Origin: a bacterium M00.F.Ca.ET.205.01.1.1
GTDB lineage: Bacteria; Pseudomonadota; Alphaproteobacteria; Rhizobiales; Rhizobiaceae
Reading direction: 5' to 3'
NCBI GenBank assembly: GCA_004791255.1
Contig: SRUQ01000002.1
Coordinates: forward strand, 62,001 to 126,000
Length of the DNA stretch: 64,000 bases
Below, in pieces: positions 27,960 through 44,924 of this stretch. Under the pieces are notes generated by a model. The model saw nothing but the letters and a program-made list of their open reading frames with translations. It ran no database searches and had not been told where the DNA came from. Within the stretch, counting starts at the first letter, position 1. Each line of letters starts with the position of its first letter. A program made the position numbers and the translations under genes.

Positions 27960-28958
27960 TCAGGCCGCCTCGCCGACCTCGGCGCCGCGGTCGACCATGG
28001 CAAGCGCCTTCTTCAGGACCTCGGGTCCGGCACCAGGCCGCGTGGCGTCGGTGGACAGGATCTGCCGATAGCGGCGCGCGCCGGGCAGGCCATGGAACAG
28101 CCCGACCATATGGCGCGTGACATGGCCAAGCCGCCCGCCCTCTTCGATATGGCGTGCGGCATAGCCGGCCATGACATCAATCAGCGCGGCGAAATCGAAG
28201 GCTCTGGCCTGATCGCCGTAGAGAACGGCATCAACATCAGCCAGAATGCCCGGCGTATGATAGGCGGCGCGGCCAAGCATGGCGCCGTCGACATGGTCGA
28301 GATGCGCGCGCGCCTCTTCAATCGACTGAATGCCGCCATTGATGCCGATGAATTGGTTCGGTTTTCTGGCCTTCAGGCGATAGACCCTGGAATAGTCGAG
28401 CGGCGGGATATCGCGGTTTTCCTTGGGACTCAGCCCCTCCAGCCACGCCTTGCGCGCATGCACCCAAAGCGCGTCGGCGCCGGCCGCGAACACCCCCTCC
28501 GCCAGCGCATCGAGCGCCGGTTCAGGATCCTGGTCGTCGACGCCGATGCGGCATTTGACGGTTACGGGAATTTTCACCGCCGCTTTCATCGCTGCGACGC
28601 AGTCGGCGACCAGATCAGGCACTTTCATCAGGCAGGCGCCGAACGTGCCGGACTGGACGCGGTCGGAGGGGCAGCCGACATTGAGGTTGATTTCATCATA
28701 ACCGAAGGCTTCGCCAATGCGTGCCGCCTCGGCGAGTTTTCCCGGATCGGAGCCGCCAAGCTGCAATGCGACGGGATGTTCCGTGGCATCGAACCCCAGC
28801 AGCCGCTCACGCGCGCCATGGATGACCGCGTCGGCCACCACCATCTCGGTGTAGAGCAGCGCACGGCGCGTCAACTGGCGATGAAAGAACCGGCAGTGGC
28901 GGTCCGTCCAGTCCATCATCGGCGCCACGGCCACTCTATGCTCTTGATTTTTCAGCAT
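27960..28958 (-). CDS. dusA: tRNA-dihydrouridine synthase A
   Basis: A 332-residue FMN enzyme reducing U20/U20a in tRNA. The signature is VAVAPMMDWTDRHCRFFHRQLTRRALLYTEMV at the N-terminus, NLNVGCPSDRVQSGTFGACLM with the catalytic Cys, VTVKCRIGVDDQDP, and IGINGGIQSIEEA. Its 5' end is the left boundary of an accessory region and is followed on the other strand by a broken integrase. dusA is a documented attachment gene for a family of integrases that act at its 5' end. The start region has only a weak ribosome-binding site, which fits reconstruction after integration. Confidence 0.95.
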   Translation of the reverse strand: MLKNQEHRVAVAPMMDWTDRHCRFFHRQLTRRALLYTEMVVADAVIHGARERLLGFDATEHPVALQLGGSDPGKLAEAARIGEAFGYDEINLNVGCPSDRVQSGTFGACLMKVPDLVADCVAAMKAAVKIPVTVKCRIGVDDQDPEPALDALAEGVFAAGADALWVHARKAWLEGLSPKENRDIPPLDYSRVYRLKARKPNQFIGINGGIQSIEEARAHLDHVDGAMLGRAAYHTPGILADVDAVLYGDQARAFDFAALIDVMAGYAARHIEEGGRLGHVTRHMVGLFHGLPGARRYRQILSTDATRPGAGPEVLKKALAMVDRGAEVGEAA

Positions 28959-29073: not shown

Positions 29074-29520
29074 ATGGCCACCTACACAAAACTCTCGTCC
29101 GGCTCCTGGCGCGTCCAAGTCCGTCGCAAAGGTCGCTATGTCAGCGAGACCTTCCTGCGCCGAGACGACGCACGGCGCTGGGCAACCGAAACCGAGCGCC
29201 AAGTCGATCGCGGTGAGATGCCGACCAAGTCCCGCATAGCGCGCCTAAAAACTTTCGGCGACCTCATCGACCTTCATATCGACGACATGTGCGATGTAGG
29301 CAAGTCCCCTCGCCGCCCCAAGGCCGCGGCCCTCGATATGCTCCAAAGGCATCTGGGGAAGTGCGGCATCGCCGCCCTCGCGGCCCGAGGCAGCCTACGA
29401 TGGCGCATTGATTGCGACCTACGCGCCTTGGGGGTGGCCTTAAGTCGCAAACTATTGGCTTCAGAAGTAGGACCTCGGGCTTCATTGACGCTGCGACCAA
29501 CACCATATGCTGGTCTATAG
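29074..29520 (+). pseudogene. Truncated integrase of the dusA-targeting type
   Basis: An open frame of 148 residues whose first 100 look like the Arm-binding N-terminus of a tyrosine integrase: MATYTKLSSGSWRVQVRRKGRYVSETFLRRDDARRWATETERQVDRGEMPTKSRIARLKTFGDLIDLHIDDMCDVG. After about residue 100 the similarity stops and no catalytic domain (R...H-x-x-R...Y) follows. It sits divergently 115 nt from the 5' end of dusA, the position expected for this integrase family. It can no longer excise the element. Family membership is by pattern memory, not by search. Confidence 0.7.
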
Positions 29521-31876: not shown

Positions 31877-34800
31877 ATGCAAAGGGATCATTCCTTGCGA
31901 CCGCATCCTCGATCGTTGGGTTGGATCGGCACCACTGCGCTGGCGATGGGTGGCAGCAACCAAAGCCTATTTCTTATCGCGGCGCTGTTCATCGGCCAAG
32001 GCGAGATTCCGGGGCAAGGAAGCGCCGCTGTCCCTTTGCTGATCCTAGGCGTGATCCTTAGCTGGGCGGCCGCACCAGCATGGACAGAGCTGGTGTTACT
32101 ATGGCCCGACCGCGTGGGCGGCATCGCGGCGGCATGTTCAGAGGCATTCCGACCTTATAGCCCGGTTCTCTCTGGTTTGGCTGGGACATGCTACTGGTGG
32201 GGTTGGGTTCCAACCTGCGGCTTGACGGCACTGCTTTCGGCATCGGCAATACAACAATGGTATCTGCCGGATATTCCCGTCGAGTTCGTAGCATGCGCTT
32301 TGGTCGTGTCCTTCACCGCGGTCAATCTGTGCGGAATAAGGTGGGTTTCGCGGCTCGTCATTCCGATTGCAACGGCATCAGCGTTCCTCGCATTCGCGGC
32401 CTCACTCATTCCGATCCTTTCGGGCAACGTCGATTGGCGGCAGGCGACGACCTTCACCTTGACCTCGCCGTTTTCAGGCTGGTTCGGTGATTTGACATCG
32501 ATAATGGCCGGCCTTTATTTGGTCGGATTTGCTGCCCCAGCGTTTGAAGCGGCGACATGCCATGTCGGCGAAACAGTTGATCCGAACCGCAACGTTCCTC
32601 GGGCCGTGTTGGCGAGCGCTGCCATGGCGGGCCTTTATTTCATAGTTCTCCCGGTGGTTTGGTTGGGTGCCTTGGGGCCTCAACGGCTGGGCGCAGACCT
32701 AGCTGTCGCTCTCGGGCCTGCCTTTGCCCCTCTACTGGGCAGTTTTGGCAAGGCAGCGGCAATCTGGTTCATGATGCTGAACATGTTCCATGGAACAATG
32801 CAGCCGCTGGCGGGAGCTTCTCGAACCTTGGCGCAGCTTAGCGAGGATGGGCTGCTGCCGCGATTTCTCGGCCGGCGTTCGGCGACGGACTGTCCATGGG
32901 CGGCGACCTTGCTGACTGCCTCAATGGCAATTCTGTTCCTTGTGATAGGCGATCCAATCTGGCTCATCGCGGCTGCAAATTTTACCTATTTGATCGGGAT
33001 CTGCCTGCCGAATGTTGCGGCTTGGCTTTTGCGCCGCGACCATCCCGGGATCGACCGACCGTATCGAGCCCCGAGGGGAGCCATCGGGCTTGGTGTGATT
33101 GCCTCGGGGATATGGATGTTGGCCGCGCTGTTGGGTTTTCAGCAGTTCGGACTTCCTACGGTCATTGTCGGTCTCGTTATGGCCTATTCGGGGGCCGCCC
33201 TGTACGCATGGCGGGTGGTTGAAGATCGGCGCCACTTGGGCTTGCCGGCCTTCGGCCAGTCTCTGCATCTTAAGCTGACGGGCGCTATGCTGCTGGTTTT
33301 GGCCTTGGACGCCGCCGGCTACGTGATCGCTGTAAGCACCGTTTCCGGGGAACACCATGCACTGATAGCGGCGCTTGAGGACATCTTCGTGGCCGTGGCC
33401 ATGTTGACCATCAGCGTCGGCTTGGTTCTACCAGGGATAATTGCACACTCGGCAACCGAGATCAGCGAAGCTGCCAGGCGCCTTACCTCGGGTACGCTAC
33501 GCGACTTCACTCGCGCCATGGTCGCTCTTGGTCGGGGTGATCTTGGTGCGGCCCACGCCTCCGTCAACATCACGCCCGTCTCGGTTCATTCGAGAGACGA
33601 AATCGGTGAGATGGCGGAGAGCTTCAATCTAATGCAGCAAGAAGTTCTCCAAGCCGCACTGAGTCTCGATGACGCCAGAGACAACCTTTCCCTGGCGCGA
33701 AGCGAACTTGACGCTTCATATCAGAGCATTGTTCATCTCGCCCACCACGATGCGTTGACCGACCTGCCGAACCGGGTTGCATTTGCGCAACATCTAGCCT
33801 TGACCTTTGAACAGGCGGTTGCCAAGGGCGAGACCTTCGCGGTGTTTTGTATTGACCTGGACAATTTCAAAGAGGCCAACGACGTTTTCGGACATGCACT
33901 TGGGGACAAGCTTCTGCGGGAAGTGTCTGTGCGTTTCGCGGCGGCCGCAACCGGCTGCTTCCTGGCAAGAATCGGCGGCGACGAATTCACTTTGATTGCG
34001 ACGGAATCCAATTCGGTACGTGGGCTTGATGGACTCGCTGGCAAGTTATTGGCCACGACCGACGATGTCTTTGACATTGAAGGCCAAAAGTTGCGCATCG
34101 GACTAAGTATCGGGATCGCTGTGTTCCCTAAAGACGGAAGCGATACTGGGACCCTTTTGTCCAATGCCGACGCCGCCCTTTACCGGGCCAAGGCGGATGG
34201 CCGTCTGACTGTCCGCTTTTTCGAACCGGAGATGGATCGCCATTTGCGCGAACGGCTAGCGCTGCAGCTTGATCTCCGCTCCGCGCTCGAACGCAACGAA
34301 TTGACACTACACTATCAGCCGCAAGCCACCATCGATGGCGAGGTGTTCGGTTTTGAAGTTCTTCTGCGCTGGCATCACGAAACACTGGGCTTTATTCCTC
34401 CCAACGAGTTTATTCCGTTGGCTGAGAAAAATGGCTTGATCGTTTCGATCGGCGAATGGGTGCTGCGATGCGCGTGTCGCGAAGCTGCTGGGTGGTCCGC
34501 TCCCCTAAAGATTGCCGTCAACCTATCCCCCGTGCAATTCCAGCATGGGGATCTGGTCAGCCTTATTCACTCAATCCTCTTTGAAACTGGGCTCGCTCCT
34601 GCACGGCTGGAGCTTGAAATCACCGAAGGAGTCCTGATAAACGACCCGCCACGGGCCCAGTCGATCCTGCGTCGGCTGAAGAACCTCGGCGTCAGAATTG
34701 CCATGGACGACTTTGGGACCGGCTACGCTTCTCTATCTTCACTGCGGTCGTTTCCGTTCGACAAGATCAAGATAGATCGGAGTTTTATTGTTGATGCGAA

Positions 34801-35089
34801 CGTCAACGGCCAGTCAGCGGCGATCGTTCGGGCGGTTATTGGGTTGGGGTCTGCGCTCAGCATGCCCGTTATAGCCGAAGGCGTCGAAACTGAAGCTCAG
34901 CGGTCGTTTCTTGCGCAAGAAGGATGTACCGAAATTCAGGGCTACCTGATTGGCTGGCCCGCACCGGTCGAGACCTTTTTCGACGTGACGGCGGGCGCCA
35001 AGCCCGCGCTTGTCCAGCGGGTTCCAAACCCCAAGCTCCATTCTGGAAAACTTGTAGAGATTCCCACTCGGTCTCAGAGCAAACGCTGA
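31877..35089 (+). CDS. Amino-acid permease fused to HAMP-GGDEF-EAL
   Basis: A 1070-residue fusion. Residues 1-455 form an APC-superfamily permease with about 12 helices: IGTTALAMGGSNQSLFLIAAL, SIMAGLYLVGFAAPAFEAA, and WLLRRDHPGIDRPYRAPRGA, the family motif before helix 11. Two further helices (about 465-520) lead to a HAMP-like segment ending DEIGEMAESFNLMQQEV. GGDEF (about 605-760) keeps RIGGDEF at residues 700-704 but no RxxD inhibitory site. EAL (about 780-1050) has EVLLRW instead of EALLRW, with NLSPVQF, ELEITEGV, DDFGTGYASL, KIDRSFI and IAEGVETEAQ conserved. It may sense or move an amino acid and set cyclic-di-GMP. I prefer the ATG at 31877 over a TTG at 31865. It is intact despite decayed flanks. 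Confidence 0.9.
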   Translation: MQRDHSLRPHPRSLGWIGTTALAMGGSNQSLFLIAALFIGQGEIPGQGSAAVPLLILGVILSWAAAPAWTELVLLWPDRVGGIAAACSEAFRPYSPVLSGLAGTCYWWGWVPTCGLTALLSASAIQQWYLPDIPVEFVACALVVSFTAVNLCGIRWVSRLVIPIATASAFLAFAASLIPILSGNVDWRQATTFTLTSPFSGWFGDLTSIMAGLYLVGFAAPAFEAATCHVGETVDPNRNVPRAVLASAAMAGLYFIVLPVVWLGALGPQRLGADLAVALGPAFAPLLGSFGKAAAIWFMMLNMFHGTMQPLAGASRTLAQLSEDGLLPRFLGRRSATDCPWAATLLTASMAILFLVIGDPIWLIAAANFTYLIGICLPNVAAWLLRRDHPGIDRPYRAPRGAIGLGVIASGIWMLAALLGFQQFGLPTVIVGLVMAYSGAALYAWRVVEDRRHLGLPAFGQSLHLKLTGAMLLVLALDAAGYVIAVSTVSGEHHALIAALEDIFVAVAMLTISVGLVLPGIIAHSATEISEAARRLTSGTLRDFTRAMVALGRGDLGAAHASVNITPVSVHSRDEIGEMAESFNLMQQEVLQAALSLDDARDNLSLARSELDASYQSIVHLAHHDALTDLPNRVAFAQHLALTFEQAVAKGETFAVFCIDLDNFKEANDVFGHALGDKLLREVSVRFAAAATGCFLARIGGDEFTLIATESNSVRGLDGLAGKLLATTDDVFDIEGQKLRIGLSIGIAVFPKDGSDTGTLLSNADAALYRAKADGRLTVRFFEPEMDRHLRERLALQLDLRSALERNELTLHYQPQATIDGEVFGFEVLLRWHHETLGFIPPNEFIPLAEKNGLIVSIGEWVLRCACREAAGWSAPLKIAVNLSPVQFQHGDLVSLIHSILFETGLAPARLELEITEGVLINDPPRAQSILRRLKNLGVRIAMDDFGTGYASLSSLRSFPFDKIKIDRSFIVDANVNGQSAAIVRAVIGLGSALSMPVIAEGVETEAQRSFLAQEGCTEIQGYLIGWPAPVETFFDVTAGAKPALVQRVPNPKLHSGKLVEIPTRSQSKR

Positions 35090-36841: not shown

Positions 36842-37092
36842 AAAAGTTCCATACGTGAGTCGCGACAGGATCGCGTTGGAGCGAGCTACGCTGGACTCGC
36901 ATCGTCGAGCCAACGTTCGCGCTCGCGATCCAGAACCTCGCCTGTCAACCGTTCTCCGGTCGGATTAGCTTGAGCAATCGGTGCCGTCGAGGTCTTGGCC
37001 TGTGCAAAATTAGGCAGTTTCCTAGTAACTTGTTGAGCATCCTCGGCACTAGCGCTACGATGTGAATCGTAGTCTGCGGGGATCGTTACTTG

Positions 37093-38223
37093 ATGAATAG
37101 TACAATCCTGCCGAGTATATGCGGCGAAGCTAACGTCGAGCACACTCCCGTCTATCAGCCATATCTGGCCGGGAATGTATCAAGGTACGTCAACGATTGC
37201 CTGGATTCCGGATGGATCTCATCTCGCGGCGAATTCGTTCCAAGGTTTGAAGTTGCGTTCGCTGAATTTATCGGAGCGAACGAAGCCACAAGTGTCGCCA
37301 ATGGAACCGTTGCAATTCACCTAGTCCTTGATGCCTTGGGAATAGGACCGGGCGATGAAGTGATTGTTCCTACATTGACTTACATCGCGACCGTGAACAC
37401 GATTCTGCAGATCGGGGCAACGCCGGTCTTCGTGGATTCCGTCGGGAGCACGCTGCAGATGGACCCTGTGGCTGTCGAACTGGCCGTGACTTCGCGGACC
37501 AGGGCGATTATGGCCGTCCATCTCTACGGCCATCCTTGCGACCTGACGTCAATCGTCGCCACTTGCCGAAAACACGACCTTTTGCTGATTGAAGACTGCG
37601 CAGAGGCATTCGGTTCGAAATGGGAGGGGCGACATGTCGGGACGTTCGGCGACGCTGCGACCTTCAGCTTTTTCGGCAATAAAACGATCACTACCGGCGA
37701 GGGCGGCATGGTTGTGACGCGTGATCCAGAGATCATGAAACGGTGCCGCCGACTCAAAAATCAAGGGGTCTCATCCAACCGCGAGTATTGGCACGACATC
37801 CTGGCTTACAATTACCGGATGACGAACATCCAGGCAGCGATCGGGCTCGCCCAACTCGAAATGGCTGCCGATATCCTCACCATGAAGGCCAAGGTTGCGA
37901 ATGCCTATCGTGTTGGATTGACTCGCCTCCCCCTACGCATGCACGACCCAGTGGGGAAAGTGACCCACTCCCATTGGATGTGCTCTGTGATTGTCGATCG
38001 GCCTCAAGATCGTGATCCGCTAAGGGCGTATCTGGCACAACAAGGGATAGAAACCCGCCCCTTTTTTACGCAAGCTCACACTATGCCTCATTGCCGAGTA
38101 GAGGGAGACTTCCCGGTTTCTGCGAGTTTGAGCGCCCGCGGCATCAACCTGCCAAGTTATCCCGGGTTGAGCCAGGAGCAGATCAGCAGGATTTGCGCTA
38201 CGATCTGCTCTTTTTGGAGATAG
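37093..38223 (+). CDS. DegT/DnrJ/EryC1/StrS aminotransferase, perosamine-synthase-like
   Basis: A 376-residue PLP enzyme that aminates a 4-keto (or 3-keto) deoxy-sugar nucleotide. The PLP lysine is Lys197 in FSFFGNKTITTGEGG. Other landmarks are SVANGTVAIHLVLDALGIGPGDEVIVPTLTYIAT, LIEDCAEAFGS and YRMTNIQAAIGLAQLE. The sequence is of the GDP-perosamine synthase or PglE/WbpE-like class, making a 4-amino-4,6-dideoxy sugar. With the acetyltransferase at 43110, it would give a 4-acetamido sugar. It starts with ATG at 37093 after a TTG. It heads the surface-glycan block. Confidence 0.88.
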   Translation: MNSTILPSICGEANVEHTPVYQPYLAGNVSRYVNDCLDSGWISSRGEFVPRFEVAFAEFIGANEATSVANGTVAIHLVLDALGIGPGDEVIVPTLTYIATVNTILQIGATPVFVDSVGSTLQMDPVAVELAVTSRTRAIMAVHLYGHPCDLTSIVATCRKHDLLLIEDCAEAFGSKWEGRHVGTFGDAATFSFFGNKTITTGEGGMVVTRDPEIMKRCRRLKNQGVSSNREYWHDILAYNYRMTNIQAAIGLAQLEMAADILTMKAKVANAYRVGLTRLPLRMHDPVGKVTHSHWMCSVIVDRPQDRDPLRAYLAQQGIETRPFFTQAHTMPHCRVEGDFPVSASLSARGINLPSYPGLSQEQISRICATICSFWR

Positions 38224-38228
38224 CCTCT

Positions 38229-38245
38229 CCCGGATTCGATCCGGG
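38229..38245. repeat. Perfect 7-bp inverted repeat after the aminotransferase gene
   Basis: CCCGGAT-TCG-ATCCGGG has 7-bp arms and a 3-nt loop, 5 nt after the stop codon. There is no T-run on the plus side. It may limit transcription into the following sulfotransferase gene or protect the upstream message. Confidence 0.4.
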
Positions 38246-38405
38246 CGCGGGTCCTCAAGGAATGAAGTGTGGATTATCCTATTAATGTACGGCAATTGTG
38301 CCAGAGCGGGCTCATGCTGGCGGACGGGCGCATCCTGTTGGACGCACCTGTAGAGCAGGCATTCGAATTCTCCGAAGAGAATTTTTTTACAATGGAGGGG
38401 GTCTT

Positions 38406-39179
38406 TTGAACCTCGCGCGCAGGCCGTTTGTAGAGGACTTCCAGAACCCAAGGAATCCTATTGCCTTCGTGCACATTCCCAAGACGGCAGGGTCAGCCTT
38501 CATCGAATACCTTGTTGCCAATATTGGCGATCAGTCGAAAGTGGCGCCGCCGTTTATGGGCGATATGACGGTCACACGAGACGAACGGAGTCCTTACCAA
38601 TTGTACTGGGGGCATTACGACTACTTCCTGCTGAAGGGAACCGGCAGAAAATTCACTTTCATCACGTTCCTGCGGGACCCCTTGGCAAGGGCGATCTCCC
38701 AATGGAAGTCATGGTCAAACCCTGACAACCTCACAGAGGCTTGGTTGAACGTCATGGAGCCCTATCAGATCGAGGCGCTCCGTTTCGCTCAGACGGCAAC
38801 GCTTGATGAGTTTGTCATGTCGCCGAATCTTTATATCGAGGGGCATATTAGAGACGTTCAGACCAGATATCTGGCGGACGCACCTGACAGGCCAGACATG
38901 CTCGATAGCGCAAAGCGCAACCTCGAGGCTGTCTTCCAATATTTCGGTATCGTTGAGCGATTTCAGGAGTCGATCGAGCTATTCCAGGCTAACTTCAGGA
39001 ATAACGCTCTGCCATATTCTGTTCCTCCAGCTCGCGAAAACAGATCGAGGGAGGTCGACGCCAACCTTTCAGCCGCAGCGCTGGCCCGCCTCCGTTCGTT
39101 AAATTCGAATGATTTCGAGCTGTATGTCTTCGCCTGCAGGCTATTCGAAGAGCGGTATCGTAAGGTATTCGGCAATTGA
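38406..39179 (+). CDS. Sulfotransferase family 2-like protein
   Basis: A 257-residue protein. The PAPS-binding 5'-loop is seen in IAFVHIPKTAGSAFIEYLV and the 3'-phosphate loop in FITFLRDPLARAISQWKSW. It transfers a sulfuryl group from PAPS, probably to a glycan or lipid-linked sugar given the neighbours. The TTG at 38406 is preceded by ggaggggg about 6 nt upstream, which decides the start; the earlier open frame has no ribosome-binding site. Its stop overlaps the next gene (TTGA). Sulfated carbohydrates are important in rhizobial Nod factors and capsules, but the acceptor is unknown. Confidence 0.82.
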   Translation: MNLARRPFVEDFQNPRNPIAFVHIPKTAGSAFIEYLVANIGDQSKVAPPFMGDMTVTRDERSPYQLYWGHYDYFLLKGTGRKFTFITFLRDPLARAISQWKSWSNPDNLTEAWLNVMEPYQIEALRFAQTATLDEFVMSPNLYIEGHIRDVQTRYLADAPDRPDMLDSAKRNLEAVFQYFGIVERFQESIELFQANFRNNALPYSVPPARENRSREVDANLSAAALARLRSLNSNDFELYVFACRLFEERYRKVFGN

Positions 39180-41497
39180 TCAAATCACCGCAAGAGCCGC
39201 ATTGGACGTCAGGTCCGGGCCAGCAGTCAATGCCTCGCGTAATGTGGCTCTTGAACCACGGCGCAGCCCGCCGTTTCGAGATCCCGATGCTCAAGGCATG
39301 CGGCTTCAACGAGATCTTTCTTCCGAAAATCTATCCGGTGGACCCTAGTTTTCGAAGCGCCTCCGTTGACCGCTCCGAAGATCAAAACTTATCCATACCA
39401 GCCAGCGATCTTGCCGTTCTAAACGCTGCGGATTGGTATCGGAATCCGGGCCGCGATGCCTGGGCTGTGGCCAACCGTCATTTCTCCTTGCTGTTTTTCA
39501 TTGTTCACACTGCGGAGGCGCTGGGTAGCATATCGGCTCACTTCGCCGGGGCAGCCATATGGCGCGCCTATGGGCTCGAGCAAACGAACAGCTACTCGAA
39601 CATTCGAAAGCATTTCACCCAAGGGCTGAAAACCATAGAGAAGTTGGGGGACCGTTTCTGGTTCGGAGAAGCTTACAAAGGTCTGCATGCGGTGGAGGAT
39701 GAACTCATCCAGAGGAAGGCCGTTTTTCTCCCGCTGGGCTTATCTTCGACCGACAGAAAGGAGGGGTGGACAGGTGCCGATCGTCGCATCTTGTTTGTTT
39801 GCCCGGACATCGGCTTCAACCCCTACTACCGATCGATCTACGAACAATTCAAACGCGATTTTGCCAGTTTCCCCCATGCGATCGGCGGGAGTCAGCCGAT
39901 CGCTATTGAGGATCCGAGTGTACTGGGATTTGTCCCTGACGAGGTGCATGATCGCAACATGCGGGAAATGCGCGTTATGTTTTATCATTCGCGCGAACCA
40001 CGTCACATTCACTATCACCCGTTTGAGGCGGTACGCTCCGGTATGCCATTGGTGTTCATGGCAGATGGTATGCTTGACAAATTTGGGGGCATTGGCCTTC
40101 CCGGCAGAGCTCGAACAGTGGATGAGGCAAAGGCCAAGATCCGCAAGGTGCTGCAGGGAGACGCTCGATTCATCGATGAAATTCGGGCGAGCCAGCATGT
40201 CCTTCTCCACGCTATGAGTCCGAATAACCTGGAGGAAACTTGGCGAGCAAATCTGACGCAGGTCGTCGAGCGCTTGAAGGCGACCAAAATGGAGCCGGTC
40301 AGGGTGCCGTCACGGAAAAAGCGAATAGCGATCATCCTGCCCATCGTCTATCGCGGAGGTACGCTTCGTGCCGCCAAGTTGCTCGCCGAAGCGATGGCGA
40401 ATGGATCGGAGCAGGCTGGAGAGGCTGCAGAGGTCGTTTTGCTTCACCTCGATCTGCCCTCCGAATACTCACCGAAGGATTGGTCCGATTTATCGCCGTC
40501 GGTGAAGATCCGAACTTTCAATTGGATCATTTTGGACAAGGCCGAGGCAAGAACGGCGATGATGTTCGATGGTCACGCCGATTGGCAGCCAATCTACGAG
40601 AAATATCTGGTCGTCGACGACGGAGTGAATCAGCTCGGTGACTGTGATGTGTGGATAGTGATGTCCGACAGGTTGTCATTGCCACTGCTGCCTATGAGGC
40701 CGGTGATCCTGGTCGTCTTCGACTATTTGCAGCGTCACTATCAGATATCGGATCTTGAGGGACAGATTCTGTTGGCCAATCGGTTAGCAGACCATGTGAT
40801 GGTGACGACGGATGTCACCCTGCAGGACGCTCTCCAATACGCAGGTGTCGATCCTCTGCGTGTCACCAAGGTGCCGATGCTCGTGCCCGAAAAGGGCACC
40901 GCCGCGCGGAATGACCACAGTGCTGAACCCACCCATTTCATTTGGACGACGAATTTGGCGGCACACAAGAACCATCGCCGCGCTCTTGCTGCACTGCAGC
41001 TTTATTACGAGGCCTACGACGGCAAGCTGAGTTGTCACGTGACAGGATTTGGCTCGAGTGAAATCCTCAAAAGCCAGTTGCCGCATCTTGATGGCCTGGG
41101 TCGTGTCGTTGCAGGCAGTCGCGCGCTTCGACAGCAAGTGAAATTTCTGGGTGAATTGTCGGACGAAGCATATCGGCGAGAACTCGCCTCATCCGCTTTC
41201 CTTTGGCACCCGACAGAACAAGACAACGGCACGTTCGCCGTTGTCGAGGCTGCTCACTACGGCGTTCCGGCTCTCTCCAGTGATTATCCCGCAATGCGCG
41301 AAATGGACCGTCAATTCCATCTCGGTCTAAGTTTCATGGACCGAGAAAATCCCGAGGACATGGCATTTCAGCTGCATGCGATGGAGCTCAGTGTAGCGGA
41401 GCGCAGGCATGCCGTGGCCTCCGAGGAGAAGCTCGCGAGTCAGAGCGTCGCACGCCTGGCGCCCAGCTACTGGCACGTTGTGCGCGAGTTTGTATGA
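39176..41497 (+). CDS. Two-part glycosyltransferase with C-terminal GT-B domain
   Basis: A 773-residue protein. The C-terminal half (about 385-773) is a GT4-like GT-B fold: IWTTNLAAHKNHRRALAALQLYYEAYDGKLSCHVTGFGS, LGELSDEAYRRELASSAFLWHPTEQDNGTFAVVEAAHYGVPALSSDYPAM with the family E-x7-E. The N-terminal half (about 1-370) is not a known domain by eye; its FRFVCPD-like stretch ILFVCPDIGFNPYYRS and SGMPLVFMADGMLDKFG suggest a second, diverged GT. The TTG at 39176 overlaps the previous stop, which fits the ATGA/GTGA coupling of the next two genes; an ATG at 39230 is an alternative. It probably assembles a surface glycan. Confidence 0.75.
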   Translation: MIKSPQEPHWTSGPGQQSMPRVMWLLNHGAARRFEIPMLKACGFNEIFLPKIYPVDPSFRSASVDRSEDQNLSIPASDLAVLNAADWYRNPGRDAWAVANRHFSLLFFIVHTAEALGSISAHFAGAAIWRAYGLEQTNSYSNIRKHFTQGLKTIEKLGDRFWFGEAYKGLHAVEDELIQRKAVFLPLGLSSTDRKEGWTGADRRILFVCPDIGFNPYYRSIYEQFKRDFASFPHAIGGSQPIAIEDPSVLGFVPDEVHDRNMREMRVMFYHSREPRHIHYHPFEAVRSGMPLVFMADGMLDKFGGIGLPGRARTVDEAKAKIRKVLQGDARFIDEIRASQHVLLHAMSPNNLEETWRANLTQVVERLKATKMEPVRVPSRKKRIAIILPIVYRGGTLRAAKLLAEAMANGSEQAGEAAEVVLLHLDLPSEYSPKDWSDLSPSVKIRTFNWIILDKAEARTAMMFDGHADWQPIYEKYLVVDDGVNQLGDCDVWIVMSDRLSLPLLPMRPVILVVFDYLQRHYQISDLEGQILLANRLADHVMVTTDVTLQDALQYAGVDPLRVTKVPMLVPEKGTAARNDHSAEPTHFIWTTNLAAHKNHRRALAALQLYYEAYDGKLSCHVTGFGSSEILKSQLPHLDGLGRVVAGSRALRQQVKFLGELSDEAYRRELASSAFLWHPTEQDNGTFAVVEAAHYGVPALSSDYPAMREMDRQFHLGLSFMDRENPEDMAFQLHAMELSVAERRHAVASEEKLASQSVARLAPSYWHVVREFV

Positions 41498-43113
41498 AGA
41501 CGTACGGCATATTCATTGCATACGCTCCCTCCATCGACATGAGGGCTGAGGGGCTGGGGCGTTATCTGGCTTCCTTTTTGAAGGCGGCTACAGATCGGGG
41601 CGATGCTCATTTCGCGATCCTTTGCCCGAGCTGGTCCCGGGACGCCGTGGTGGCACTTTGCGTGGAAGCCGGGATACGCCCTCAGACCTACAGCCTCGTG
41701 GGCCCCGACCAGACGCCGTTCCTGTATCGGGTCTATCGACTGCTGCAGCGCCGTCGCGAGACCAAGCCGCCGCGCAAGCGCTCTCGAGCGCTTCGCGACA
41801 GACTATATCCAGTGGCAGCCTCGCATGGCGAATGGCTGAAGGGCCGAATTGCGAGCACGCGAAGCTTCACCGCTTTTCTATCCTTTGTCGCGTATGGCGC
41901 GACCTTGGCAATTCCTATTGGCGCCGCTGTTTTCGGGATGCGACTGGTAAAGAGGCTCCGTGCCACCGCCAGCCAGGCGGTCAGACGGGCCTTGAGAACA
42001 GCTAATCGAGCTGTTGGTTCGATGGGCTCACTGTCGCTATCCACACTTCGCTTCAGGCTGTACGAAGGAATGCTGGAGCGTGAGTCTGCTCTAATGGTTC
42101 AAAACGGCAACAGACGGGGTGACATAAGCGCTTGGTATACACCAGCCGCCTTCTGGCCCCGAGTAGGCGATTTGAAGGCGCCAGTGCTAACCTGCGTACC
42201 TGATGTTGTTCTTGCGGAATTTCCTATAGGGTTTGCCAAGCTTGGCGGCGTTCCGATGCAGCATGCCTTCCGAACTGTGGCCAACACAATCCGTCGCAGC
42301 AAGAATTTCGTCACCTACAGTGACCATATCAAGCGCGGAATCCTCGTAGAGAAATTCGGAATCGATCCGAGTGCGATCCGGACCATACCTCACGCTCCGA
42401 ACGACTTAAGTCGCCCGGTCTCAATTCGCGGCTTTCCTGACAACGAGGCGACGGGGCGGGCTTATGCCGAGATGCTTTTGCTCGCAGCCATTCGAAAAGC
42501 CAGCAACAAACGGTATGCAACCACCTTCAGCAATCCGAAGGTTCGGTTTCTATTCTATGCCAGTCAATTTCGTCCATCCAAGAACGTGATAACGCTCTTG
42601 CGGGCGTATGAATGGCTTCTCCGAAAGAGAGGCCTCGGACATAAACTTATTCTCACGGGCTTCAGTCACTACGAAAGCGTCAGCACTTTCATCGACCAGC
42701 ATAATTTGCGATCGGATGTATTGTGCATCCACGGGCTGACAGAACCGGAACTGGCAGCCTGCTACAAGCTCGCGGATTTGGCCGTGAGTCCTAGCCTTTC
42801 CGAAGGCGGAATGCCCTTTACCTTCACAGAAGCAATGTCCGTGGGAACACCTGCGGTTCTGGCAGATATCGAAGTGACCCGCGAGGTGATAAAGGATCCA
42901 GCGCTACGAGAAGCGTCTCTTTTCGATCCTTATGACTGGCAGGCCTTGGGCCACAAGATAGAATGGGCCATTGAAAACCGCGCCAGTCTCTATCAACAAC
43001 AGCGGAAATTCTACGACGATGTGCTGGCAAAGCGATCGTGGGCGAATGTCGTGGAAGAGCATCTGGATGTTCTCGACCGGTTGGCGGCCCGACAAATGGT
43101 GGCTGAAAAGTGA
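41494..43113 (+). CDS. Glycosyltransferase family 4-like protein
   Basis: A 539-residue protein. The last 300 residues form a GT-B catalytic domain: FLFYASQFRPSKNVITLLRAYEWLLRKRGLGHKLILTGF, CIHGLTEPELAACYKLADLAVSPSLSEGGMPFTFTEAMSVGTPAVLADI, with a GT4 E-x7-E. A helical basic insert with one possible membrane-associated stretch (FTAFLSFVAYGATLAIPIGAAVFGM, about residues 125-150) may tether it to the inner membrane. It overlaps both neighbours by 4 nt. Donor and acceptor unknown. Confidence 0.82.
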   Translation: MKTYGIFIAYAPSIDMRAEGLGRYLASFLKAATDRGDAHFAILCPSWSRDAVVALCVEAGIRPQTYSLVGPDQTPFLYRVYRLLQRRRETKPPRKRSRALRDRLYPVAASHGEWLKGRIASTRSFTAFLSFVAYGATLAIPIGAAVFGMRLVKRLRATASQAVRRALRTANRAVGSMGSLSLSTLRFRLYEGMLERESALMVQNGNRRGDISAWYTPAAFWPRVGDLKAPVLTCVPDVVLAEFPIGFAKLGGVPMQHAFRTVANTIRRSKNFVTYSDHIKRGILVEKFGIDPSAIRTIPHAPNDLSRPVSIRGFPDNEATGRAYAEMLLLAAIRKASNKRYATTFSNPKVRFLFYASQFRPSKNVITLLRAYEWLLRKRGLGHKLILTGFSHYESVSTFIDQHNLRSDVLCIHGLTEPELAACYKLADLAVSPSLSEGGMPFTFTEAMSVGTPAVLADIEVTREVIKDPALREASLFDPYDWQALGHKIEWAIENRASLYQQQRKFYDDVLAKRSWANVVEEHLDVLDRLAARQMVAEK

Positions 43114-43736
43114 TACCATCCCAAGAAGCCGGCATCTATTTTCTGGGCTTTGGCGGGCATGCGCGAAGTGTAGCCGACATTGCACTGGCCGCCGGCGTCA
43201 AAGACATGATCTTTGTGGATGCTCAAGCTCGACAGGGTGAGACCTTCGCCGGGTTTCCAACGCTTAATCTTTTGCCTGCCCCGCTGGCCGTTGGATGGAG
43301 CGTTTTCCCTGCAATGGGCGACAATCTCGGCCGGAGGGCGGCGTTCGAACTGCAAGATATATCGGTGAAACTGATATCGCCAACCGCCACCATCGGCATC
43401 TTGGCCCAGGTGGGAGTAGGAACGATGGTTGGTCACCATGCTCACCTGGGGCCAGCGGCTGTGGTGGGCTGCGGCGTCATCATAAACACTGGCGCAATAG
43501 TCGAGCATGAATGCCAGGTAGGCGACTTTTCTCACATATCCGTCAATGCAACGGTTGCTGGCCGCGCGCGCATCGGTTCGAACGTTTTCTTGGGGGCCGG
43601 AGCCACGGTCATCGATAAAGTATCAATCTGCGATAACGTAGTCGTCGGTGCTGGAGCAACGGTGGTCGATCACATCCTTGCGCCAGGCACATACGTCGGC
43701 ACGCCTGCTCGTCCTGTCAGAAATCGGAGCAGCTAA
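43110..43736 (+). CDS. NeuD/PglD-type sugar O- or N-acetyltransferase
   Basis: A 208-residue protein. The N-terminal part (IYFLGFGGHARSVADIALAAG) is a Rossmann-like sugar-nucleotide domain and the C-terminal part is a left-handed beta-helix of hexapeptide repeats (VGVGTMVGHHAHLGPAAVVGCGVIINTGAIVEHECQVGDFSHISVNATVAG). The His in VEHECQVGDF is the expected catalytic base. Family members acetylate amino sugars such as UDP-4-amino (PglD) or sialic acid (NeuD). With the aminotransferase upstream a 4-acetamido sugar is likely. The GTG start at 43110 overlaps the previous stop. Confidence 0.87.
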   Translation: MIPSQEAGIYFLGFGGHARSVADIALAAGVKDMIFVDAQARQGETFAGFPTLNLLPAPLAVGWSVFPAMGDNLGRRAAFELQDISVKLISPTATIGILAQVGVGTMVGHHAHLGPAAVVGCGVIINTGAIVEHECQVGDFSHISVNATVAGRARIGSNVFLGAGATVIDKVSICDNVVVGAGATVVDHILAPGTYVGTPARPVRNRSS

Positions 43737-43772
43737 GCGTTTGCGCGCGAGCCGCCTGAAGGTGTGAACTGC

Positions 43773-44924
43773 ATGTCAAACCGCAATCTTCAGTTGGATA
43801 GCCTGCGCGGGATTGCGGCGGTTTGCGTGGTATTTCACCATTGCATTCATATAGCCGACGCCCATCTGGTGCCTCGCGTTTTGAACGTTCCGTTGACGGC
43901 GCTTTCGGGTGTCGACCTGGCTGGCAGAGCACTCCTCTCCGTCTTCGCCGGCGGGATGGCCGTGAACCTCTTTTTTATCTTGAGCGGGGCCGTTCTCATG
44001 GCGTCTCTGGACAGGGAAGCCACGTTTAGCGTCTGGACCGCGATCAGCTTCACGTTCCGCCGGATACTCAGAATCTATCCCGCCCTGATCGCGATGATTG
44101 CCGGGTTCGGGTTGCTAAGCTGGCTGTATCCACCAAGTCATTCTTCAGTGCCTTTCACCATTCGACAACTCATTGAAAACAGCTTTCTCATTACGAACCA
44201 TGTGAATGGCGCGACGTGGACCTTGCAGTCCGAAATGCTGATGGTTCCGTTCATCCTGTTGACCGCGTTCGGCCGCGTGGTGTTCGGCAACATCGCCCCA
44301 GTATTATTTCTGTTTTGGGCGACAAGCTGTTTATTTCTCGGCGCGCCTTTTGCGCCGGAGCTCATGAACGTCGCCCTTCCATCTTTTGCATTGGGAATGC
44401 TCATTCCCGCTGTCACCATCACGCGCGGAAGGCTTCCGAACTGGGTCGTCTACGCCGCGCTTTTGGCGATGATCTGCATCCGATTTTTGTTTCCGGTTTC
44501 AGACATCAGGGCCCTGATGGCCGAATTGGGCCTTTCGTTTCTGGCTGTCGCGTTTCTGTTCCATGACGGGGAAAGAGATCACATTTTCAGCAAACCGGCG
44601 CTGACGGGCTTAGGGCGCATCAGCTATGGGATCTACCTCATCCACCCGGTTGTGTTGTCGGCGCTGCTGCCGCTTTTTGTTGCGGTGTCTGGCTGGGCGT
44701 GGATCGCCAAGAACTACGGCGTGTTCGGACTAATTTTTGGAACTGTCGTCACGGCGATAACGATGCCGTTGGCAGGACTCTCTGAGCGCTATGTGGAGCG
44801 CCCATTCATACGATTCGGCGAACTGATGTTCGGCAAGAAGAACAAAAACGCTGCTGTCGCGGCAGGCGTGCCCGAGCAGGCAGGCTCCGAGTTCCGAAAC
44901 GCCGCGATGACACCGGGCGAATGA
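43773..44924 (+). CDS. OafA/YrhL-like acyltransferase 3 family protein
   Basis: A 383-residue integral membrane acyltransferase with ten helices. The N-terminal signature LDSLRGIAAVCVVFHHCIHIADAH carries the conserved His pair-type motif of the family, then FFILSGAVLMASL and FTFRRILRIYPALI. It moves an acyl group, often acetyl, from the cytoplasmic to the outer face and O-acylates polysaccharides. The ATG at 43773 has gaagg about 10 nt upstream. It ends the glycan block, followed by a short weak ORF. Confidence 0.88.
   Translation: MSNRNLQLDSLRGIAAVCVVFHHCIHIADAHLVPRVLNVPLTALSGVDLAGRALLSVFAGGMAVNLFFILSGAVLMASLDREATFSVWTAISFTFRRILRIYPALIAMIAGFGLLSWLYPPSHSSVPFTIRQLIENSFLITNHVNGATWTLQSEMLMVPFILLTAFGRVVFGNIAPVLFLFWATSCLFLGAPFAPELMNVALPSFALGMLIPAVTITRGRLPNWVVYAALLAMICIRFLFPVSDIRALMAELGLSFLAVAFLFHDGERDHIFSKPALTGLGRISYGIYLIHPVVLSALLPLFVAVSGWAWIAKNYGVFGLIFGTVVTAITMPLAGLSERYVERPFIRFGELMFGKKNKNAAVAAGVPEQAGSEFRNAAMTPGE

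Follow-up and report, generated by a model that had tools for sequence, protein, structure and literature searches.

Several described sensors are built on a transporter. According to extracts of the respective papers, CbrA is a transceptor (PMC13022988), SLC5-STAC proteins carry kinases or GGDEF domains (PMC5715377), and Ks-Amt5 is an ammonium sensor histidine kinase (PMC5764959; PMC9100948 is cited alongside this paper and PMC7096432). A text search of the PMC5764959 extract found no mention of GGDEF. For the S-component-type (5TMR) receptors, the extract of PMC11109136 names an NRAMP-5TMR protein as the sole such assembly with a transporter as the fused domain. The question of how a carrier's alternating-access movement could be read out as a signal has been posed chiefly for CbrA, its SLC5-STAC relatives and Amt sensors. 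The gene considered here lies in a stretch of 64,000 nucleotides (the window: contig SRUQ01000002.1, positions 62,001 to 126,000, of the Rhizobiaceae soil bacterium M00.F.Ca.ET.205.01.1.1) and encodes a 1070-residue protein in which an APC permease is followed by two extra transmembrane (TM) helices, a HAMP domain and a GGDEF-EAL enzyme of cyclic di-GMP (c-di-GMP). We read it, with a probability of about 0.72, as a transporter-derived receptor for a small solute, of the transceptor type: binding of the ligand would drive the HAMP domain, whether or not transport takes place. A preliminary description of the locus had proposed that substrate binding or transport sets c-di-GMP levels. This was supported in part: a shared module, exchanged outputs and heptad-phased spacing argue that the permease is the sensor input.

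The protein is read from a single uninterrupted frame with zero internal stops, and its start ATG and next codons are also present in the DNA of two relatives, L009 and L028 (related loci carry L numbers). In Pfam, AA_permease_2 matches residues 14-414 with 119.1 bits (cut-off 27; profile positions 1-403 of 427), HAMP scores 34.6 bits (cut-off 25), and GGDEF and EAL reach 129.6 and 241.3 bits, both above their cut-offs. These were the only families listed, and no match to a STAC domain was obtained at E 0.1. The frame and the profiles confirm the architecture given in the preliminary description, and what it had called a HAMP-like linker is a real HAMP domain. As in HAMP-coupled membrane sensors, this domain comes right after the last TM helix, and a phased coiled coil leads on to the output. 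The possibility that two genes had been joined by a sequencing error, raised at that stage, is rejected, as the same domain order was found in one frame in L009, L010, L013 and others; a 1082-residue frame in the three-contig assembly G1021 gives independent support. Mis-assembly is refuted because the same architecture occurs in independent genomes. The host genome (6.89 Mb in 254 contigs, nearest named relatives Mesorhizobium) contains many other GGDEF-EAL genes. The permease module was found there in a single copy, as a profile search yielded besides it just two matches, of 78 and 39 bits, within one other frame.

When the species-genome collection was scanned with residues 1-508, 39 loci were recovered; 38 are close (L009-L046, 60%-93% identical) and one is remote (L047, 25%). 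Residues ∼1-610 are matched in the 38 loci, and the match then either continues through GGDEF-EAL or stops. An output is visible in 35 of the 38; the remaining three (L011, L018 and L043) run off the end of their contigs. These 35 outputs comprise 16 GGDEF or GGDEF-EAL (13 by full-length match, L042 and L046 by Pfam and L035 by motif, the start of its GGDEF being visible at the contig end), 2 PAS-GGDEF-HD-GYP and 17 histidine kinases (16 by Pfam and L024 by motif alone). The 20 tails assigned by Pfam were 16 histidine kinases, the 2 PAS-GGDEF-HD-GYP proteins, L046 with GAF-GGDEF-EAL and L042 with GGDEF-EAL after a spacer. Kinase tails are plain or extended by REC, by REC and Hpt, by two REC domains (L025) or by one or two PAS domains. 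In none of these 35 loci does the permease stop without an output. Metagenome bins make up many of the source records, and their taxon labels may be incorrect (e.g., L045, labeled Klebsiella); named isolates with the module include two Mesorhizobium, Hansschlegelia quercus, Methylocapsa palsarum and Paraburkholderia kururiensis. The comparison shows the first ∼600 residues to be a portable module, predicted to serve as input, that is carried on different outputs.

The outputs do not follow the module. In a module tree of 34 rows, in which the window falls in the starred set of 12 GGDEF-EAL rows, the four labels (GGDEF-EAL, kinase, HD-GYP and cut) need 6 changes, with a minimum possible of 3. 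Identity to the window in module and output, respectively, is 74% and 41% for L014, 65% and 40% for L033, 65% and 43% for L046, 64% and 33% for L037, and 61% and 43% for L042; nine other relatives are 70%-93% identical in the module and 58%-82% in the output. For comparison, seven GGDEF-EAL proteins encoded at other places in the host genome are 40%, 45%, 48%, 49%, 50%, 50% and 53% identical to the output of the window, and the output of L014 lies below six of these seven. The input of L014 is therefore related to that of the window, but its output is no nearer than those of unlinked genes. These identities were relied on because the output-only tree is weak (support below 80 at 8 of its 18 inner branches; long rows). 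Judged from sequence comparison, outputs have been exchanged during the history of the family, GGDEF-EAL included.

The linker between HAMP and output changes length only by heptads. Fifteen rows of alignment A1 lead directly to GGDEF; the distance from F583, an invariant HAMP residue, to the first residue of DxLTxLPNR is 42 residues in 12 of them and 35 in the other 3, and with L050 (42), all 16 of 16 stand at 42 or 35. The distance from F583 to the phosphorylated histidine of HisKA is 51, 65, 72 or 79 in 12 rows of A1, 72 in L024 and L054, 79 in L045 and 51 in L039, and all 16 of 16 equal 2 modulo 7. Spacings were read from alignment columns in rows without an inserted domain, leaving out L026, L036, L038, L040, L042 and L046 (domain or spacer between) and L018 (cut). 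The HAMP-to-output spacing is, by this reading of the alignment, held in heptad phase. The agreement is supportive but not a strict statistic, because there are just four length steps and the rows are related.

Residues 1-625 were modeled with AlphaFold2 from a 34-row alignment (pLDDT 78.8, pTM 0.76). In the predicted model TM1 is discontinuous at residues 24-26 and TM6 at 217-219, and the helices 463-488 and 494-552 run into HAMP. The best Foldseek matches were AdiC (5j4i; E 1e-12, TM-score 0.80 by target), LAT1 (8kdg) and asc-1 (8wnt), and VIA-align placed 430 residues on y+LAT1 (8xyj) with Z 37.1 and a root-mean-square deviation of 3.7 Å. A structure prediction had been suggested in the preliminary description; the model obtained supports a LeuT/APC fold with TM1 and TM6 broken, and together with the Pfam profile and the solved-structure matches it places the domain in the APC superfamily. 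In the LeuT fold, the broken helices make up the substrate site. The highest conservation in the alignment falls in TM3, TM6, TM10, TM8 and TM2 (84%-88%), intracellular loop 1 (IL1; 86%) and TM1 (83%) and the lowest in TM4 (63%) and TM5 (65%), with TM11 also among the lowest; the extra helix pair has a mean top-residue fraction of 79%-82% over 34 rows. Invariant positions number 31 of 80 in core stretches of TM1, TM3, TM6, TM8 and TM10 versus 82 of 366 in the remainder of residues 10-455 (Fisher p 0.002, with the stretches picked after the alignment had been viewed and the L028 row dropped). The first ∼100 residues of L028 are out of frame; this row was retained in alignment A1, the model and the tree.

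The nearest free permeases found are only about 25%-28% identical. The window shares AFE (TM6), GASRTL (TM8) and A..N..Y (TM10) with at least two of three free permeases, whereas MGGSNQ in TM1 and NMFHGT in the first part of TM8 are specific to the window; TM3 carries an invariant YWWGW. This divergence, the unlike TM1 and TM8 cores and the lack of a free-standing clade member among the 35 readable loci would suit a protein that has lost transport and merely binds its ligand, a sub-case of the receptor reading that is quite possible, if somewhat short of even. However, no feature was seen that would block transport, and CbrA retains it, according to extracts of PMC7096432 and PMC13022988. The completeness of the permease fold in the model also fits the reverse wiring, in which a working transporter is regulated by cytosolic domains that sense c-di-GMP or GTP, as in KimA with c-di-AMP; KimA structures with c-di-AMP (8b71, 8b70) are among the fold matches. 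This arrangement is quite unlikely, since the same module bears HD-GYP and histidine kinases with REC and Hpt, which are usually outputs, the EAL and GGDEF catalytic motifs are preserved, and HAMP with a phased coiled coil is the customary connector from input to output.

Several points weigh against a receptor. Conservation does not pick out the site, because it is as high in TM2 and IL1 as in the segments presumed to form the site, and the TM5 lysine of some APC transporters (ApcT K158) has no counterpart, by an ungapped reading. Steps of seven in linkers are expected for coiled-coil sensors generally, and the rows are non-independent; L036 (206), L040 (311), L042 (201) and L046 (206) are off the heptad phase, although this is expected with an inserted domain or spacer. 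L028 (Mesorhizobium sp. WSM3859) carries a frameshift at about codon 100, with residues 1-102 in frame 1 and all later ones in frame 3, and L039 is split near residue 187. Occurrence is also sparse: with its own genome counted, the module is present in 4 of 119 genomes of the genus, 4 of 297 of the order and 1 of 398 of the phylum sample. The family sample gave 1 of 199, and a profile search of the class sample gave 2 of 240, the second being a partial match of a 561-residue frame.

The output half has its best solved relatives in MorA 4rnh (384 bits) and 5m3c (367 bits), and both the profiles and the catalytic motifs of a GGDEF-EAL c-di-GMP enzyme are present. The GGDEF motif of the window is an intact RIGGDEF, and 16 of 17 aligned family members, the window included, keep GGDEF (L019 has GSDEF). 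In the same 17 proteins the EAL motif reads EAL in 12, EVL in 3, EGL in 1 and ELL in 1, and the asparagine, ITE/LTE, DDFG, K.D and E motifs of the EAL domain are found in 17 of 17 and the Q motif in all 16 rows that reach so far; the other EAL motifs of the window align with MorA 4rnh. These are the residues that, with those of GGDEF, we take to be catalytic. EVL as the mark of a dead EAL domain is not supported, as the other motifs are kept and variants occur in relatives, and the substitution looks harmless. An RxxD inhibitory site is absent from the window at what we take to be the PleD position. On these motifs the EAL domain is expected to be an active phosphodiesterase and GGDEF to be either a cyclase or a GTP-binding regulator.

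In the proposed mechanism, an outside solute would bind in the center of the fold, between the discontinuous helices TM1 and TM6. Switching between outward-facing and inward-facing or occluded states would be relayed via TM12-TM13-TM14 to HAMP, which would shift the coiled coil of a dimer. This shift may alter the phosphodiesterase activity of EAL, with GGDEF acting as cyclase or GTP-binding regulator. For the family, the corresponding proposal is that APC-fold transceptors share a portable permease-2TM-HAMP input for one solute class, which has been transferred between several phyla and repeatedly re-fused to c-di-GMP cyclase/phosphodiesterase, HD-GYP and phosphorelay outputs, the alternating-access movement being the signal; we put this at a little better than even. 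One ligand class is expected, given how little the central segments differ between Alphaproteobacteria and Actinomycetota-labeled contigs.

The identity of this ligand was sought in models and neighboring genes. The best-scoring named permease model in NCBIfam is the trimethylamine N-oxide (TMAO) permease NF053774 (130.5 bits), and one of the three nearest-scoring free permeases adjoins a dimethylamine monooxygenase gene and a DUF3445 gene, one a ferredoxin-NADP reductase gene and one a Rieske-type oxygenase gene. Together with the invariant YWWGW of TM3, this suggests a methylated or quaternary amine of the TMAO, dimethylamine or betaine type. Such a ligand is doubtful: the score lies far under the equivalog cut-off of 690, placing the protein outside that family; PF11927 (HODM, N-demethylase) is present in just 10 of 34 module genomes and absent from 24, a count without a matched control; and the genes adjoining the module are varied, with no shared pathway among 20 neighboring proteins from 15 loci examined by Pfam. 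In a clustering of flanking frames, from which those antisense inside the module were set aside by position, sharing was confined to close relatives. A phospholipase C-like gene adjoins the module in L017 (8918-11137), of interest were the ligand choline-like, and a MauG/CCP-like di-heme peroxidase gene does so in L044 (8728-9759), a Methylobacillus-labeled bin. In two Paraburkholderia loci (L032, 4079-10795; L054, 6166-11528) the APC-type kinase gene overlaps or abuts a GAF-kinase-REC gene, which in L032 precedes it. A REC-EAL gene follows in L032, so that signaling by the kinase form may likewise lead to c-di-GMP.

The ratio of nonsynonymous to synonymous substitution rates (dN/dS) between the window and L009 is 0.09 overall, 0.07 in the permease, 0.04 in TM13-14, 0.03 in HAMP and coil, 0.17 in GGDEF and 0.07 in EAL; ratios against L028 (frameshift-inflated) and L010 (synonymous saturation) were not used. 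The selection that had been argued from the intactness of the gene is thus seen as purifying. A chance or chimeric fusion without joint function, through mis-assembly or gene decay, would suit the low-GC location, the patchy family and the broken L028 and L039, but purifying selection, the conserved linker phase and the same architecture in many genomes, including G1021, make it extremely improbable.

The family is rare and patchy and has apparently moved between genomes, to judge from its distribution. The genes beside the window copy differ from those beside L009 or L028 (6 kb compared). The plasmid collection contained one member, on a 1.09-Mb Paraburkholderia replicon, and the phage collection none above 60% identity; in viral contigs a DNA pattern for the YWWGWVP stretch, covering that exact codon pattern only, found nothing. 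G+C content is 0.54-0.59 over 30-46 kb of the window and mostly 0.61-0.67 outside. The low-GC stretch contains an AhpC/TSA-like protein, an ECF-type sigma factor and a glycan-type gene run (Table 1). The genes of this run are intact, and several overlap by 4 bases. The earlier picture of an intact gene in an otherwise decayed island is borne out in part only: G+C content is lowered over about 28-46 kb, but with the glycan run intact, decay does not describe the whole island. The placement of a c-di-GMP enzyme next to glycan genes would fit regulation of a surface polysaccharide, but none of the relatives examined showed this neighborhood. A 148-residue frame (29074-29520, + strand) lies just upstream of a dusA-like gene; it has no Pfam match at 1e-4 and resembles the first part of a tyrosine integrase. 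The island edge is probably at dusA, and no 14-base direct repeat of the dusA 5′ end, as in dusA-type integration, was found elsewhere in the window.

Table 1. Features of the receptor gene and its surroundings, in window coordinates
Feature	Positions	Strand	Evidence
Whole gene, APC permease-2TM-HAMP-GGDEF-EAL	31877..35089	+	Open frame and Pfam
APC permease domain, residues 14-455, 12 predicted TM helices	31916..33241	+	Pfam, structure model, Foldseek, VIA
Extra helix pair, residues 463-488 and 494-∼525 (end at 525 an estimate; helix unbroken to 552 in model), 5-residue loop between	33263..33451	+	DSSP on model
HAMP domain, residues 535-590	33479..33646	+	Pfam
Coiled-coil-like signaling helix, residues 591-621	33647..33739	+	Model helix 575-624; length steps of 7
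GGDEF domain, residues 622-776, GGDEF motif intact	33740..34204	+	Pfam, alignment
EAL domain, residues 799-1026, EVL variant, remaining catalytic motifs present	34271..34954	+	Pfam, alignment
Glycan-type run: DegT aminotransferase, Sulfotransfer_2, two Glycos_transf_1, PglD-like transferase, Acyl_transf_3	37090-44924	+	Pfam
dusA-like gene	27960-28958	-	

No APC permease joined via HAMP to an output was found in the open-access literature searched, although InterPro or Pfam architecture lists may tabulate such fusions. The preliminary statement that no characterized example is known stands to that extent; the principle itself is known from SLC5-STAC proteins, CbrA included, and the Amt histidine kinase. 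APC seems to be a third carrier superfamily made into a general sensor cassette, and it would give c-di-GMP networks, in which many sensors lack a known ligand, a further type of input. Because one input is combined with GGDEF-EAL, HD-GYP and kinase outputs through linkers whose lengths differ by whole heptads, the family offers natural chimeras for testing transporter signaling.

The protein resembles APC transporters (AdiC, LAT1, asc-1, BasC, ApcT) in the fold of residues ∼7-459 with TM1 and TM6 broken. These are without output domains and are 14%-20% identical to it, whereas the window protein adds TM13-TM14-HAMP. The TMAO permease of NF053774, the top-scoring named model, is free-standing. 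MorA/MucR-type GGDEF-EAL enzymes match the output half and have other sensor parts. In extracts of PMC11109136, 5TMR/S-component receptors likewise combine a transporter-related membrane fold with GGDEF, EAL and histidine kinase outputs, but the fold is that of an S-component, not LeuT/APC. Ks-Amt5, in the extract of PMC5764959, also fuses a transporter-fold domain to an output; its fold is Amt/Rh, from another family, and its ligand is ammonium. In the SLC5-STAC proteins (CbrA, CrbS and RpuS), a carrier of LeuT-type fold is fused to outputs including histidine kinases and GGDEF (extract of PMC5715377). In contrast to their SLC5 carrier and STAC connector, neither of which Pfam detects here at E 0.1, the present protein uses an APC permease (AA_permease_2), two extra helices and HAMP.

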